Of a DNA stretch of 64,000 nt, positions 14,672-32,200 are shown piece after piece (the stretch's first letter is position 1; the number at the start of each line of letters is the position of its first letter). The stretch is from Halichondria panicea (Eukaryota > Porifera > Demospongiae > Suberitida > Halichondriidae). The notes beneath the pieces were generated by a model. The model searched no databases. It was not told where the DNA came from and was given only the letters and a program-made list of their open reading frames with translations. The position numbers and the translations under genes were made by a program. The DNA lies in the NCBI RefSeq assembly GCF_963675165.1, contig NC_087381.1, forward strand, positions 6,139,378 through 6,203,377. The letters run 5' to 3'.

Positions 14672-15573
14672 TAGATGACGAAAAATTGAATACGGATGAT
14701 ACATAATTATGTACATGCATGCACCCATGTCGCATCCTAAATGAAGTAAATGTACATGTAGTAGCCTCGAGTAATTCTAGGCCACTGGAAAATACATGGC
14801 TTGAATCGAGGCTATAGAGTAGACTAAGGTATAGAGCCACCTAGATTACACAATTAGATGTGGCCCTCCAAATATGCGATATCTGCAATTGCAAGACCTC
14901 AAAAAAATGTTTAACCTCTAAAAGCATAATATATAATTATGCATGTGTGTGTATTTATAATATCCACGTGTGCCCGGTATTTATGGTTATAAACTTTGAT
15001 TCATAAATCCAAGCCCATGCAGATTTAATTATAATAATATCTATGCCTTAATTATGTCTATCTATGTCCAGATTTATGTATCCATGCTTAGATACAAGCA
15101 CAGATTTATATATATATATACCAGATATTAATACTGAATTATCTCATCATTAATTTTATAAATCCACACCCAGGTATTTATAACTCAATCAATCATTGAG
15201 TCAATGAAAGCACCGCACAGGTGCTGATGCTTCGGTGGAGATGCCAAAGTTATATAACAGCTTTTATACACACTTATAATAATTATCATGATGAGAGCAT
15301 TTTTACATTATATATATATTATTTTTTGCAAACTCAAAAAATGGGTAGATTAATTAATGACCATGCATGTTTGTTGTTAAAAACGATCGATGCCAAAAGT
15401 TCAAATCTAAAATTAATGCTTATTAACTACTAAGTAGAGTAACAACACTCGGTGAACAAGTTTTGCTACGCACTCTGCAATGGCATTCCAAGTAAGCAAA
15501 ACTATAGCTATAGGCATAACTCAAACAAAGCATTACTTTGCAAATCCACGATAAGAAAACATGACTAGAAGCC

Positions 15574-15803
15574 TAGCCTCGAGACCAGCCGTTCGTTATC
15601 TGAAAGAACGCCTGGTCAAGTTCCAATGTTGTACAACTTGTCTAGCTGAGTCAGCGTTTTACAGCATCATAATGATATTCATGGGTAATTCACCTTGTGC
15701 GGGCAATTATTGGTACAAAAAATTCCTGTACCAATTAGACAAGTTGCACATTGGAGCTTGACCAGGCGTTCTTTCAGATAACGAACGGCTGGTCTCAAGG
15801 CTA
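15574..15803. mobile_element. TAGCC-family MITE, 230 bp
   Basis: Inverted ends TAGCCTCGAGACCAGCCG and its complement (one mismatch), then matching GTTCGTTATCTGAAAGAACG. It is a close copy of 24468-24687. The inverted dispersed-repeat copy near 20040-20070 lacks it, supporting insertion, though no clean 9 bp duplication is left at this site. Confidence 0.8.
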
Positions 15804-24022: not shown

Positions 24023-24467
24023 AATCATAGTGAAAGTCAGAACAAATTTGAATTGAAAATTGAATTACCCCGAAACTACAATTTCTACCTACAGAGGATC
24101 TCTGATCAAAGTTTAATTAGGTAACCTCTCCTACCCCTATCTTTGAGGGTCCGTAATTTGTGTTCAGATTGTCCAATTTCAAATTGATGCATTCAATAGC
24201 TCTCAGAATTACCTCTATATAATTAGAATAAATATATGTAATTAAGGATTTTTTCTACAATAATTATTAAACAACTCTTCTCTTAATACAAATTTGTGTG
24301 TTTGTGTAACTATAGGCGCTATATATACTAGCGCTTATAGCTAGAATATTGCTGACTCAGCACTTACAACCCTCACAAAGAAACAAGTGTAGCTCCACTT
24401 TGCAGGGTTGCCTGATTCTGGGAATTGCTCCACTCTGTACTGCACTCTATCTAGATTGTACTCAACT

Positions 24468-24687
24468 TAGCCCTCGAGACCAGCCATTCGTTATCTGAAA
24501 GAACGCGCAACTTGTCTAGCTGAGTCAGCGTTTTATAGCATCATAATGATATTCATGGGTAATACACCTTGTGCGGACCTTGTGCGGGCAATTACCGGTC
24601 CAAGAAATTCCTGGACCATAGAACGAGTGCTACATTAGAACTGGACCAGGCGTTCTTTCAGATAACGAACGGCTGGTCTCGAGGCTA
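24468..24687. mobile_element. TAGCC-family MITE, 220 bp, 9 bp TSD
   Basis: Ends TAGCCCTCGAGACCAGCC / complement, flanked by TACTCAACT at 24459-24467 and 24688-24696. Near-copy of 15574-15803. Confidence 0.85.
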
Positions 24688-26219
24688 TACTCAACTTGTG
24701 TCAGTTAGCTCTAGCTGCTGTGTAGTTTGGCAAAAACGGGGATCGGTACGTTCTGATGAAAATCGAAAAATTCGGTAGTTTTTTTCAAGTTATCACTGCT
24801 CCGACTGGAAGCGACTTAGCCTATCCAAGTTTTCGCTGGATAATAGGCCCATGGTCATCTGTTAGTGTGTGTAATTAGTTTGAATCAGTCTTGTTTTGTT
24901 TGTGCGTTACACGCCCTTTTACTTGATGCCTGGCGGAATTCGGCGACTTACTCTATAGCATTTGCTGGGTTGATGGTAGAGTTCCCCAGTGTCTTTTCTT
25001 GTCTCTACGAGGAACACTAAGAGCCAATGATTTTAACAGTTTTGGGTCCATTGTCACAAGTATGAAAGCATGTCTTCAACTTGTAGCATTTGTCAACTTC
25101 GTCCTCCTGACTTCTGTTTCTATCCTGCAGCCACGTTTCAAATTGTTTACTTCAGTAGACTCCTGTGTCTTTTTGGGAACGATAGTGCACTGTAGCATTG
25201 CTGCAAGCTGTTCCTTGCTAGCTAGCCGTACAGATCAGAACAGTTTACTGAGAAGCTTGAGCTGGGGTGGGGCTTGAGTGCAGAGAAAAGAGGAGGCTGG
25301 GCTCATTTGTTGCAGAGCGCTTCCTGCACAAGGTGGAGTCACTAGTTTGTCTATTCCAATGTTGAAGCAAGGCCAATACAAAGGTTTTTTAGCAGAGAAG
25401 CAGAAATCATCGAGCTTGTCAGAACATCATTCAGTTTTTTGTTCCTATAATCTGTTCATGCATTCATGTTCTTTGTGTGTTTTTCTCATTCCAAAACTCC
25501 GCTTTCCCGTCGCTTGATTGCTGCAGTTCACCATTTAACATTTAATGGAGAAGCCTCAAAGCGCTGCCTAGTGAAATAGGTCAAATCTCTAGCATTTTAG
25601 GGCCTATATATGGGCCCCAAAATGAGGGGGAGCCCCATATCGCTTCTATACACCAGTCTATTAAACACTGGTATAGTTACCCGCCCGGTAAAGTGATTGG
25701 TGTGTGCATGTGTCCGTTTGTGTTTGTGTGGACACAAAAATGAGCACATGGATTGCTTTAACTGCTAACGAGAGGCTAGTTATAGGCGATTTTCAAAGGC
25801 GACAAAAAAATATGTGTTTTAATTATTGCTTTATAGAATCATTCCCCATAATTATTGTATCGCTGTGCAAGCTCAAAGCACGAGGTGAATGCTCTATAAG
25901 TATCTTGTTTGTAAACATAATTGTATAACTGAACACTACTCTGCATGCATGGTTTCTTATTATTCATGCCAACAGCCGAGGGTCGATCGGTACTTGGTCT
26001 GAATTTTCTCGGCATGTCCCCCTTGAGTCAGCCATAATTATATAGATTGAAATTTTATGTGTCAACACACACTTTGTGAATCTAAATTGCAGAATTTGAG
26101 AGTGTTGTTAGTATCACTAAAGCTGTGGCTGCTACTGATGATATTGATCGTATATAATATACAAGCCTTGAGTAAGCTAGTGAGGTTACAGAGACATTGG
26201 AAGCAAGTCACTGTCTGAA

Positions 26220-29200
26220 ATGAGGTTAGTGCATCACACCACTGCATGTTGTTTCATTATTCCAGCTATATTAGTTATAGTCATCAGTTGGCATGGTTAT
26301 AGACACTTTCGGCTACTGTGTTTCGTACGCAACATTATATTACACACATGCATGCATGCACACCCAAACATTAATAATGGCTGCACTCATCTTATCACTC
26401 CTTCAGTAATCATCACCTTGCTAAACAACTCTACCAGGCTAGTGATATTGGCCATGACCAAGAAGTGCTTGAGCTGCTACAGAGAGGAGTTCCACCCAAC
26501 AATAGTGAATTCTACACTAGAGAGCTGTGTGGATGGACTCCACTACACTGGGCATGTGGTCATAACCATCTCCGCAGTGCAGAACTACTCATCAAGTTTG
26601 GAGCGATTGTAGCTGCTACAAACGCTGGCGTTAATTGGACTCCCTTACACTTTGCATGTGCCAGCAACAGTACGGCTACTGTTCAGCTGTTATTGAAGCA
26701 CCACTGTCCCACAGGTGAGCTTGCATGTGTGTTAGCATCCAGCTATATAGCTGTGTCAGTAGGTGTGATGTGGCAGTAGCCGTCATTATGCCTCGAGGCA
26801 TAGCCGCATGAAGGATACCCCTTTACCAGAGGAGGTACGACATCCACGAGGCAAAGGAAGTGTTTTAGACTCACATTCCTTAGGTCAAAGTTCAATTGTG
26901 CCAAATACAAGCACTTAGGCTGCCATGGAAGAGTCTGATTCGTGCACTGTTTGATCTAGGTTATAGCTTAATTAATCAACCATCGTTTAACTTTAGGAGG
27001 TATACCTGGAGTTGCTATATATGAGTATCACTTCGTTTGATGGCTATTGAACTTTAATCCGGATATATATAATAAGGAATGTGGGTCTTTAAGACTCGCA
27101 GATGTCGTACCTCCTCTGCCTCTTTACCGGTTTTGAATTTAAAGCGGTTGTACTTAGGTAATCCGTACTCTAGCTAAAAGTGAGGTTGTGAGCTAGCTAT
27201 ATGTTTCACAATTATTATTATGAGAAAACAGAAAGTTAAAACAGTTGTATGATGCACTACAGCATACTGAGAGAAGCAGATTGTTCCACATGAAGGTGTT
27301 CTAATGTAAAAAACGAGTACCTAAAGAGTTTCTTCTTGCATAAATTGTGTGCTCTTGTTGATACTTATTGTGAGAGTATATATATAGAAGAGTTCGTAGC
27401 AAAACTTGTTCACCGAGTGTTGCTATACTCTACTTGGTAGCTAGCTTTGCACTAGAACGCTAGCTATTGGTAGCTGCAGCAGTGAGAAGAGAGCTGCAAG
27501 GCTCTGCTGATGCAGCCATAGCCTCGGTCCCAGGCCGATTTTTTTTTAATAGAACGAAGTTGAAAAATACGGCCTGGTATTGATTGTATCTGGGCATGGC
27601 AGGAACCGGAAACAAAAGCAGTGATTCTTTACATTTTGTTTCCTGCTTTTTTTCTGTAATACTAAAGGTGTACGTAGAGGCATTTTACTCCCGTAAAAGT
27701 TACAGTAATGTAGCTCCGTGTCATGTTCTCAAATTTATAGCTAGCTAGCTAGCTATGGCATGCAACGCGTTGTCTTGTTTGAAGCAAGATGGCCTCACTC
27801 TCATGGCAAAACAGGCACAGGCTCTCAAGCCCTATTTGAGGGAAGGGACGTGTTTATCTGGTTCCCAACTGGGTATGGCAAGTCTCTCTGCTATATCAGT
27901 TGCTACCCTTTTTAATGGACTACAAGCTAGGTAGGACCAAGGCTCCTCCTGTTGACAAAAGTGTTGTTCTTGTTAATTGTATCTCCTCTTGTATCTCTCA
28001 TCATGAGACTCATGATTGACCAGGTCAGGAGTCTAAACAATAGAGGTGTTTCTGCTGCCATCCTCAGTAGCAATAAAGGAATCGACAAAGATTTGGTTGC
28101 CACTGCCAAAGAAGTGTCTTCTGGGAAGTATTTCCTGCTGTATACTGCCCCAGAGGCTGTTGTTGTGAAGACCACTGTTGGAGGATTCATTTTTTGTTGT
28201 ACCACAGAGTCAATGTATTAAAAAACCACGCCCAGATCACGCCCAAATACAATCAATACCAGGCCTAGTAGGCGACCTAGCGTTCAATTGGAGACAGATC
28301 GGCCTGGGGTCGAGGCTAATGCAGCCATTGCTTTTAGACTTGAACTTAGGCATCAATTGTTTTTAACAACAATCATGGTCGATCATTACCCACTCTTTGA
28401 GTTTCCCTGTGATGGATTCTGCATGCAGCAATATCATTATAATAAAAGCTAGCTATTAGTAGCTTTACGTTATGTAGCTTTGGTATCTCCACCGAGGTAT
28501 CAGCACCCACGGTGCTTTCATTTAGAACAGTAGACATGCACATGTGGTTATAAAAATTTGATATGGGCGGTTCGACGGTTAAGTACGGTACTAACTATAA
28601 GATAGAATACATGCATGCAAAGTTCTAGACGTATATGTATACACATGCAATAACTTAATCAGTTAGTCTCATATACATGCAATCTGCATGCTTAGTTTCA
28701 CAAAAATTTTTAATAATGGTTTCATTAATTTAAAATGACGTCGTCGCCTAGATTCAAAATATTTCTTGGAATTAATGCATCATGTCTGCAAGCACACACC
28801 AAACCAACTGTCAGTCATGTTCAACAAACCACGCAGATATCAAGGACAATGCTGGAAGGGCTGCTGCTGATTGGGCCAAATTGTTTATGCACCGTGCCTT
28901 GGCTTACTATGTGGAAGTATTCCAGCCTGGACCTAGAGGTGAGCTGGCCATAAGCTGTTGTTGTACACACACAGTATAATAATAATAATCAGTAGGTATC
29001 TAGCCCCGTTTAACACGACACCTAATCCGGGTCGAATCCTGGTCATATTTTTCTGAGCAATGGGCATAGTAAAATGACATTTGATAGGATCTATGGGAAC
29101 ACCCACAAATATGTACAACACCTCAGAAGTAGCCCTTTGTTTTTACTCACAGGCGCAAATGAAGAGATTGAGATATGTATCCTCATGCAGATTTCCTTTA

Positions 29201-32200
29201 ATGGCAGCTGATCCAGAGGAGCAATTAGCCTTTGATTGAGCATTAGTTATTTGCCCACGTTGTATGTTATTGCAATTACTTGAGTTGCACCGCGCCTGTC
29301 GGACCGATAACTCTTAAGTATCATTATGTACAATGAATAATTTTAGCAACACTTAGCATAATTATACGTTTGTACATACAAGATGATGCAGAATCAGCAT
29401 AGTATAAGATGCTCTATCTCCTCATTTTCTCCTGCTGACAGCTAAACGGCCTCCTCCAGAGATTAAAACCTGCATGAGATAGGCCTGTTTACACAAATGT
29501 CCAACCTGGATTAAAGGCTTCGTGTATTATGCACCAATCAGTTTCTCTGTAGATGTTTGATCATAAAAAGAGATATAATTGCATGCATGGTCGTGCCTAA
29601 CCACCATAATATCTCGATCCATTCATTTTGTACTGTTTACTAAAACATATCCACACCGTTTTGTGTACAGTACAATGCCATGCAATGAGATGTATATATG
29701 ACTGGCAAAGACAATGCCCAAGTGACTATACACTCAAGATATATACTACAGGAGTCCTTTTGGCTTTAAAATCTCATAGAAACCTCCTCCTAAACATTAT
29801 TTAATTATGTAGATCCTCTGTCCTCGTACCCAACACTGGAACAGTTGAGTCAGCTGGAATGTGACCAATGGCTTCAACTTGGTGTTCACTTGGGATTGGG
29901 AAATGACCAACTGGAAACCATAAAGAAGAGCCAACATCCCACAGCAGCAACTCTCCAGGCAGCCAAAATCAAGAATATTGACATGCAGTGGAAGGATATT
30001 GTGGAAGCTCTAATGGGCATGGGAGAGTACAAGTTTGCAGAGAGTGTGTGCACTCAGCAAGGTCAGTAAATAACTTGCTACTGTTACAGGGCTCGAAAAT
30101 ACAGCCAGACAACGGACAAAATCCAGTCATTATTTGTACGTGACCAGTCATTGCACATGTTAGTCAGACATTTTGTCAGAGCAGAGCTATAGCCAGAGAT
30201 ATATAGCTAGCTAGCTAGCTATATATCTCTGGCTAGGGGCTAGCTGTTCTAGCTCTATAGCACTAGTAAGATCTAGAGCCCTTTAACTTACCAGAGTTCT
30301 ATATAGTAGCTCAGACTCAAGAAGTGTGGACAAATGAAGCAGTGAAGCAGTGAAGATGACAAAGAAGACATTGAATGTAGTTAGCCTGAGAACAATCGGA
30401 CTGTCTGAAGTTCTGAGTTTATTCTCACTCTCTTGCTAGGTCTCTCACTGTCTTTGTCACTCTGGTTGGTGGGTCTCTCCCGATCTTTTTGGTTGGTCTC
30501 TCTCTAGCCTCGACTCCAGTCCCTTGAATAGTGGGCCTGACATTGGCGTGTGGGTGGACAATTAATTTATTATTTACCGTATTTTATCTCATTGAACGTT
30601 AAAACATCTTATTGTACAAAAAGGAGAGGCTACCTCTCTGTATATACTGTAGACAGAGACAGCTAAGCTAAGTAAAGCTAAGTAAAACATCAGCTCTGTA
30701 GATTTATTCATTAACTTGAGGTTCGGATCGGATACACACTCAGGCGACAAGTTAATCTCATAAGAAATTAGTTAAACCTGTGGGTAAAAAATAAATGTGG
30801 ATAAGTACAGTGGCTGTGACGTAACATAATGTGAGGACTACTTATTGATTTACACAATAGATTTACCATTGAAAGCACTATTCATTAATACACACTCGAG
30901 CAACAAGTCTGGATACACACTCAAGCAACAAGTCCCTCGGATTGTAAACACATTCAGGCCACACAGTTCTCGGATCAGATACCACGTACTTACTCTGTGA
31001 CCAATTTTCGGCAAATGTAACAACAATACTTCCTTCCAGAGAGAATGGCACTGAACGTCGAACAGACACACCAACACTTTGAAGATGGCGGCTTCACTCA
31101 GAGAAACAAGAGGAGAAATTACCATCACAACACTTCTTTCAGAGAGAGGTGCACTGGTCCTGTCAAGCTTCACATCAATCAAGAAGGAGTGTCTGAAAAG
31201 CAGATGGACTTGCTCTGGGACTTGCCATAGCCGGTCGGTACGGTACCCACATAAACACCAGTGTACAGACACTTCAACGCCTCCAGCTTGTCTTTCAAGA
31301 CTAGACCTGGTTTTCCAACACAGGATAACGCGTACGCGAGAGCAAAAGAGAAGGTAGCAGCCATTACATGTACACAACTTGGACTAGATTTCTTTTTTCA
31401 ATGACATCATTATAAATGAAACGGATATCAATGTTTAAATGCGGAATAAGAATACTGATAAATATACTACAATTTACGATTACCAAGATTCTTGGTAATT
31501 CTGGCGCATGCATAAACAGTGTATACCAGGCCGCCTTTCTCAGCGGCCTGGAATCGAGGCTAGTCTCTCTCTCTCTCTCTACAAAGTTTCAAGATAGCTA
31601 TCAGGCCTAAGAAACTTAAATTAAATTATATGGCTCAAGAAATCTTTGAGCGTCAAACTTCAAAGATCATGCTCATGCACAAGAACCAATGTTTGAGCCC
31701 TTTCTCGGTATAGACAAATAGTTAGCTAAGTGATACTAGACAGGCTAGATCTAAATAGAAACAGGTTCTATTCCGCTATATGCAATTGAAATACTGTAGC
31801 TAAGCTATAGCAAGTATTCATGCAAATTGACTTCACTATTGCTGTGCCAACAATTCTTAGATAGAGAGCAAAGTGAGTACAAAATGGCTGCAGGAGCACA
31901 AAGTACAGTGATGGAGGCCCTGGGTGGGGCTCACATGAACAAAGAGAGGAAATGTTAACAATAGTGAGGCTAAATGCTAGAGTCCAAAAGTACAACTTGA
32001 CAGCAGCAAATTATGGTTTAAATTGTAGTAAATATTACGTAATAAGGTATAACATGTACGCACCAACATACCGCCGGCCAAGACCAAGTGGTCTTACAAA
32101 TTAAATGGTGTGCATCAGTCATTGTTCATTGTTCGGTAGAAGCAATGCTAGCTTCGTCACAGGGCGAGTATATGTTCCGGTAGCAGTTCTAACAGTGGCT

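Follow-up and report, generated by a model that had tools for sequence, protein, structure and literature searches.

Short inverted-repeat elements in a Halichondria panicea window are probable derivatives of AcademH-type transposons that encode a RecQ-like helicase

We analyzed a stretch of 64,000 nucleotides from Halichondria panicea (C5:6139378-6203377 of the 131-Mb genome; hereafter, the window), which contains four short elements named A (447-1537), B (24468-24687), C (27519-28318), and D (30505-31562). The four are very likely non-autonomous derivatives of several AcademH-type families of cut-and-paste DNA transposons. Full-length elements of the same genome carry a RecQ-like helicase gene placed tail-to-tail (convergent) with a multi-exon transposase gene that contains a DUF6589 core. 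The AcademH placement rests on good but incomplete evidence, all of it from sequence. What is new is these families, within a kind of transposon that is known but little studied. The finding of most use is the full-length family to which B belongs, which is very young.

Each window element was flanked by an exact 9-bp duplication, and the four duplications differed in sequence. The elements and their duplications are listed below, together with a further B-type miniature inverted-repeat transposable element (MITE) that was missing from the list of an earlier note on this DNA.

447-1537: element A, 1091 bp, non-autonomous; 85-bp terminal inverted repeats (100%); ends 97-99% identical to the 6092-bp element at locus L016
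438-446 (left) and 1538-1546 (right): 9-bp target duplication of A, ATATCTCAC, exact
24468-24687: element B, a MITE of 220 bp that consists of terminal and subterminal sequence from the L025-L030 family; 35-bp inverted repeats (97%)
24459-24467 (left) and 24688-24696 (right): 9-bp target duplication of B, TACTCAACT, exact, read by eye
27519-28318: element C, 800 bp, from a non-autonomous family whose members are about 793 bp long; inverted repeats imperfect
27510-27518 (left) and 28319-28327 (right): 9-bp target duplication of C, ATGCAGCCA, exact
30505-31562: element D, 1058 bp, non-autonomous; inverted repeats imperfect
30496-30504 (left) and 31563-31571 (right): 9-bp target duplication of D, GTCTCTCTC, exact
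15574-15803: further B-type MITE, with no matching 9-bp duplication

The earlier note had already described the four elements and their duplications. The flanks were reread and agreed in every case, and three elements were also recovered by a scripted test. The test covered every inward-facing pair in the window that joins a TAGCCTCG-like to a CGAGGCTA-like end (5592 pairs), with at most 2 mismatches and 30-9000 bp apart. Only three pairs (447-1537, 27519-28318, and 30505-31562) had an exact 8-10 bp flanking match, and 0.02 chance 9-mer matches were expected. Element B lay outside the reach of the test owing to an additional C in its left end (TAGCCCTCGA), and its duplication was read by eye. 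With at most 1 mismatch, TAGCCTCGA had 20 matches in the window versus 7.2 expected. The inverted repeats of A, B, C, and D differ beyond their outermost bases, indicating that the elements belong to different families.

Full-length elements were reached by searching the genome with the helicase piece of C and with Pfam DUF6589. They were 5.3-6.1 kb long and had TAGCC(T)CGA-type terminal inverted repeats, with ends identical or related to those of the window elements. Their duplications were 9 bp, once 10 bp, wherever both flanks matched. The element at L016 was 6092 bp with a 10-bp duplication, and its genes were broken. The element at L021 was 5643 bp with a 9-bp duplication. Over about 60 bases, its two ends matched the right end of D at 83% and 76% identity, indicating a relative of D and not its direct parent. 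Six elements (L025-L030) carried B ends; five were 5349 bp and one was 5575 bp, with 240 gap columns against the rest. The earlier note had predicted an autonomous parent encoding a helicase, and L016, L021, and L025-L030, each of which matched both RecQ-like helicase and DUF6589, bear this out. All full-length members that were read had helicase sequence.

In L016, L021, and L028, the helicase open frame, of the RecQ-like superfamily 2 type, started some 90-150 bp in from one end. The transposase started near the opposite end and was multi-exon (predicted introns), with a DUF6589 core and three acidic motifs. In L021, Pfam matched the helicase to DEAD (8.7e-13), Helicase_C (6.7e-12), and RecQ_Zn_bind (5.9e-6), and the transposase on the other strand to DUF6589 (1.9e-15 and 2.7e-31). 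The start of this transposase was zf-AD-like (E 0.00039, below Pfam's cut-off). L028 had the same arrangement, with DEAD at 5e-14, Helicase_C at 1.4e-11, and DUF6589 at 9.2e-12 and 2.7e-31. L016 had a DEAD match, and L023 had Helicase_C and RecQ_Zn_bind above the cut-off in a scan that began after its first part. The closest solved structure to the L021 helicase was WRN (4e-29), followed by RecQ, RECQ1, and BLM; for L028, WRN and BLM were the closest (about 1e-36). The element helicases appear to belong to the RecQ family, having a superfamily 2 core plus the RecQ zinc-binding region.

The pairing of the two genes was also seen across the genome. Among the matches listed (DUF6589, best 102 of 106 candidates; helicase, best 135 of 156), 92 DUF6589 matches formed 63 clusters and 121 matches of the L021 helicase formed 104. 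A helicase cluster lay at most 4 kb from a DUF6589 cluster in convergent orientation in 32 of the 63 cases (one at 3.9 kb) and in divergent orientation in one. The divergent case was a helicase-less element beside another element. Because L021 was the single helicase query, distant helicases may be missed.

Within the 6092-bp element, L016:4153-4653 resembled an Ulp1 protease, with a Peptidase_C48 match at E 0.11, below the cut-off. The stretch could be a nested insertion, since no comparable open reading frame (ORF) of at least 100 amino acids was listed at L023.

The L025-L030 family was very young. Five of its elements were bracketed by the exact B end, and the sixth was found in a follow-up comparison. 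Every pair differed by 0-6 substitutions over about 5.3 kb, indicating that the B family moved very recently. Four of the six (L025, L026, L029, and L030) had 9-bp duplications.

The other two, L027 (C10:1593011-1598359) and L028 (C10:1620706-1626054), were identical full-length B elements in opposite orientation, about 22 kb apart. The 9 bases past the right end of one were the reverse complement of those of the other. An inversion between the copies or an aberrant transposition could have produced this pattern; the left flanks misfit a simple inversion.

Short copies were numerous. Related TAGCCTCGA-type ends occurred in hundreds of copies genome-wide. With at most 3 mismatches, the 39-base A end had 1239 genome matches (606 forward, 633 reverse), the B end 243 (117 forward, 126 reverse), and the C end 99 (46 forward, 53 reverse), and the backwards control gave 0 for each of these three ends. 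The helicase piece of C had 39 other copies that were 96-98% identical over 281-292 bases, among the best 40 of 136 candidates, the window's own copy included. Exact 9-bp duplications were present at 10 of 13 further family C loci that were read. Twelve copies of the family, turned to one strand with L013 left out, had a median pairwise difference of 2.3%. The longer copies nearest to C were L019 (2060 bp, 9-bp duplication) and L015 (2564 bp, low-complexity duplication GCTAGCTAG), and each retained the starts of both genes.

Helicase remnants were found in three of the four window elements:

27771-28186, + strand: remnant in C, N-terminal RecQ-like, with motif I (PTGYGKS) and the motif Ia region; frame broken
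30850-31397, - strand: remnant in D, N-terminal RecQ-like, in two frames, motif I at 31179-31397 and the motif Ia region at 30850-31383
829-885, + strand: helicase coding scrap in A; over 59 columns, 88% identity with the helicase region of L016

The scrap in A had been missing from the earlier note. No helicase match was found in B, since most of it derives from the subterminal region at the opposite end. The remnant in C spanned about 420 bp with about 80% DNA identity to L019, and its DEAD match (0.0012) was below Pfam's cut-off. On their own, the window pieces 27931-28221, 30850-31383, and 31179-31397 gave no Pfam match at E 1; they were recognised through comparison with longer copies. 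The C piece was 76% identical to the L019 and L015 helicases over 63 amino acids, and 29 amino acids of the D remnant were 72% identical to the same two. The C and D pieces did not match each other at E 1e-3. C and D had been said to carry the same segment in different orientation. Both are indeed N-terminal, RecQ-like, and frame-broken; they are homologous pieces from different families, and the orientation reflects only how the elements are placed, each piece reading inward from one end (in D, the right end).

The simplest reading is that these scraps are passengers left from the element's own gene. Since the helicase starts near one end, internal deletion tends to spare the beginning of the gene. 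In a proposed mechanism, the transposase would bind the inverted repeats and excise the element, which would then be joined to a target whose strands are cut 9 bases (rarely 10) apart, and repair of the stagger would make the duplication. The helicase may help to unwind or process the ends or the target. Internal deletion would yield short copies that keep the ends and are mobilised by proteins of the full-length copies, and scraps would persist in some short copies because the helicase gene adjoins one end.

It might instead be argued that the fragments inserted independently, or that MITEs recently captured them from a host RECQL gene, as they are short, frame-broken, and inside elements without a transposase. 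The case shows that gene scraps in MITEs can be mistaken for captured genes although they stem from a gene of the element itself. The fragment position was constant across the family C copies. The fragments occupied the same place in family copies and parents, indicating that they are not nested insertions, which the earlier note had named as a possible objection to its reading. The C piece, which matched L019 and L015, gave no match to the host RecQ rows L034 and L035 at E 1e-3, and the helicase gene was present in the full-length elements.

The earlier note had also proposed comparing the helicases with host genes by phylogeny. In a 31-row tree, 23 helicase rows assigned to elements were separated by a branch (support 99/98) from the RecQ rows of the host (3) and of bacteria (5). 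Of the 23, 10 (L033, L037, L041, L042, L048-L052, and L054) were labelled by similarity, with no DUF6589 match within 4 kb. For L052 and L054, the label was given since L028 was their best match. L048 adjoined a B-type end, and the DUF6589 match of L046 was 3.9 kb away. The tree is to be read as unrooted, with host rows incomplete and with L034, L035, L051, L052, L054, and L056 filling less than half of the columns; L029 (same sequence as L028) and L053 (69 amino acids) were left out, and 5 of 12 bacterial loci were used. The element helicases formed two deep groups, one with L021 and L023 and the other with L028. The separation favours a long-standing association of helicase and transposase over recent capture of a host RECQL gene. 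Recent capture from the host was rejected on the tree and on the identities; the insertion-or-capture explanation is in substance refuted by the full-length elements, and we give it almost no credence.

Four of the rows labelled by similarity, L033, L049, L050, and L051, were similar RecQ-like helicase copies with one in-frame TAA each. They may mark additional AcademH-like elements in which the transposase has eroded or diverged.

A different role for the scraps was also considered, in which the helicase N-terminus of the 793-bp family makes a short protein that aids or regulates transposition. The family is numerous and fairly uniform, and motif I and motif Ia shared a frame in most of the 12 aligned copies, as they did in the window copy. 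We checked the frames of four landmarks: motif I, the QLLPF stretch, motif Ia, and GVSAAI. Motif I and QLLPF, which lies between the two motifs, were in different frames in 11 of the 12 copies, and in L002 the break came later. In none of the 12 did all four landmarks share one frame, and in all 12 the longest stop-free stretch lacked PTGYGKS. Two extra bases after motif I, absent from L019 and L015, stood in an identical stretch in 10 of the 12 copies; L002 had this stretch plus a nearby 2-base loss, and L017 differed. The helicase frame was very probably already broken in the family C copy that spread. A functional helicase mini-protein was rejected on the frame breaks in all 12 copies, and its chances appear negligible.

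As for placement, AcademH transposons were reportedly treated by Kojima in 2020. The AcademH features present here were 9-10 bp duplications, an encoded helicase, and terminal inverted repeats. In the part of the published account available to us, AcademH elements make duplications of 9 or 10 bp and encode a helicase, AcademX elements make duplications of 3 or 4 bp and encode a nuclease, and duplication length seems tied to the encoded helicase or nuclease (PMC10045372). As far as that part goes, AcademH and the present elements share the same duplication lengths and a helicase beside a transposase, which is DDE-type in AcademH and probably so here. In the present elements, helicase and transposase are encoded by two separate, convergent genes, and L021 has a transposase with a zf-AD-like start. 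With AcademX they would share the transposase core, if DUF6589 is the Academ transposase; they differ from it in having, in the window elements and the related full-length elements alike, helicase sequence and 9-10 bp duplications.

A helicase-less lineage was found in the same genome. L024 encodes a DUF6589 protein of 1732 amino acids in one open frame and has no helicase. It and the near-identical L031 (99.7%) had 4-bp duplications, GAAC and TGAA, in flanks that otherwise differed as read by eye. Helicase-less DUF6589 proteins, up to 1732 amino acids in one frame, were present at L024, L031, and L069-L072. Comparable acidic motifs were seen in both DUF6589 lineages with patterns of our own choosing, of which the D2 or E pattern missed some copies. 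We regard the L024 lineage as a candidate AcademX. A lineage with a helicase and 9-10 bp duplications beside a helicase-less one with 4-bp duplications fits the two branches of Academ.

Several points weigh against the AcademH placement. The C-terminal region of the L024 lineage, which we take to be XPG-nuclease-like by its motifs, gained no support from Pfam and PDB searches: 0 matches were obtained for L024, L069, L070, and L071, with a profile against PDB and with the rows against Pfam. In L028, RecQ_Zn_bind (0.037) was below the Pfam cut-off. Among the matches listed, 30 of the 63 DUF6589 clusters had no helicase match within 4 kb; six of these belong to the helicase-less lineage. No full-length parent of C was found in the genome, where its relatives were about 2.0-2.6 kb, and D had only L021 as a distant full-length relative. 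No matching duplication was seen at L009, L010, L013, L018, L022, L023, L027, and L028. The transposase was placed through DUF6589, whose link with Academ we infer; a search of one literature collection found no paper on DUF6589 and none joining an Academ transposase with an XPG nuclease. The likeness to AcademH was drawn from the description in the available part of the source, with the published gene order, ends, and transposase outside the comparison.

MULEs make 9-bp duplications and have terminal inverted repeats and abundant short derivatives, so a rival origin would be a MULE, KDZ, or similar superfamily, making duplications of 8-9 bp, that acquired a RecQ-like gene. Pfam scans of a selection of the parent ORFs gave no MULE, KDZ, hAT, or P-element domain, and the elements here carry a helicase. 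MULE and KDZ (Zisupton, Kyakuja, Dileera) were rejected on these scans. DUF6589 also occurs in the 4-bp lineage, and the Academ split into helicase with 9-10 bp and nuclease with 3-4 bp, as given in the accessible part of PMC10045372, fits both lineages. We consider an origin in another superfamily improbable. The earlier note had named MULE, KDZ, and Academ and left the family unplaced; of these groups it is Academ, in its AcademH branch, that fits.

Kolobok transposons duplicate TTAA. The duplications read here were 9-10 varied bases, none of them TTAA, and KolobokH was rejected. The likeness to Kolobok is that of a putative DDE transposon with a RecQ helicase: in the portion of the source available, KolobokH and Kolobok-1_CCri carry one, that of Kolobok-1_CCri on the complementary strand, as here (PMC9587614).

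With the AcademH reading, the chances are about even that this genome holds a side-by-side system of an AcademH family that is still mobile, or was so very recently, and a helicase-less DUF6589 lineage with 4-bp duplications. If so, the two lineages would suit asking whether the helicase or nuclease sets the spacing of the target cut. Near-identical full copies, numerous short copies that share their ends, and a helicase-less lineage would allow direct tests of what the helicase does and of why duplications are 9 bp in one lineage and 4 bp in the other. To our knowledge, the role of the helicase in Academ transposons is untested by experiment, although we made no search for such experiments.

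Some smaller structures were also noted. Among the matches listed for the A end on C1 (about 100), nine facing pairs were 90-106 bp apart. Tiny elements consisting of little beyond two ends seem to exist beside the common A size of about 1.05-1.1 kb. Near a family C copy, TAGCCTCG-type ends bounded an element of 107 bp at L008:918-1024, which was flanked by a 9-bp duplication of its own, CCCTTTTGT. Open frames neighbouring the elements have an animal look by eye, with EGF-like, kinase, and TIR-like stretches. In the window, two TAGCCTCGA ends that face inward enclosed 53 bp at 14762-14814, and no 9-bp duplication matched there.

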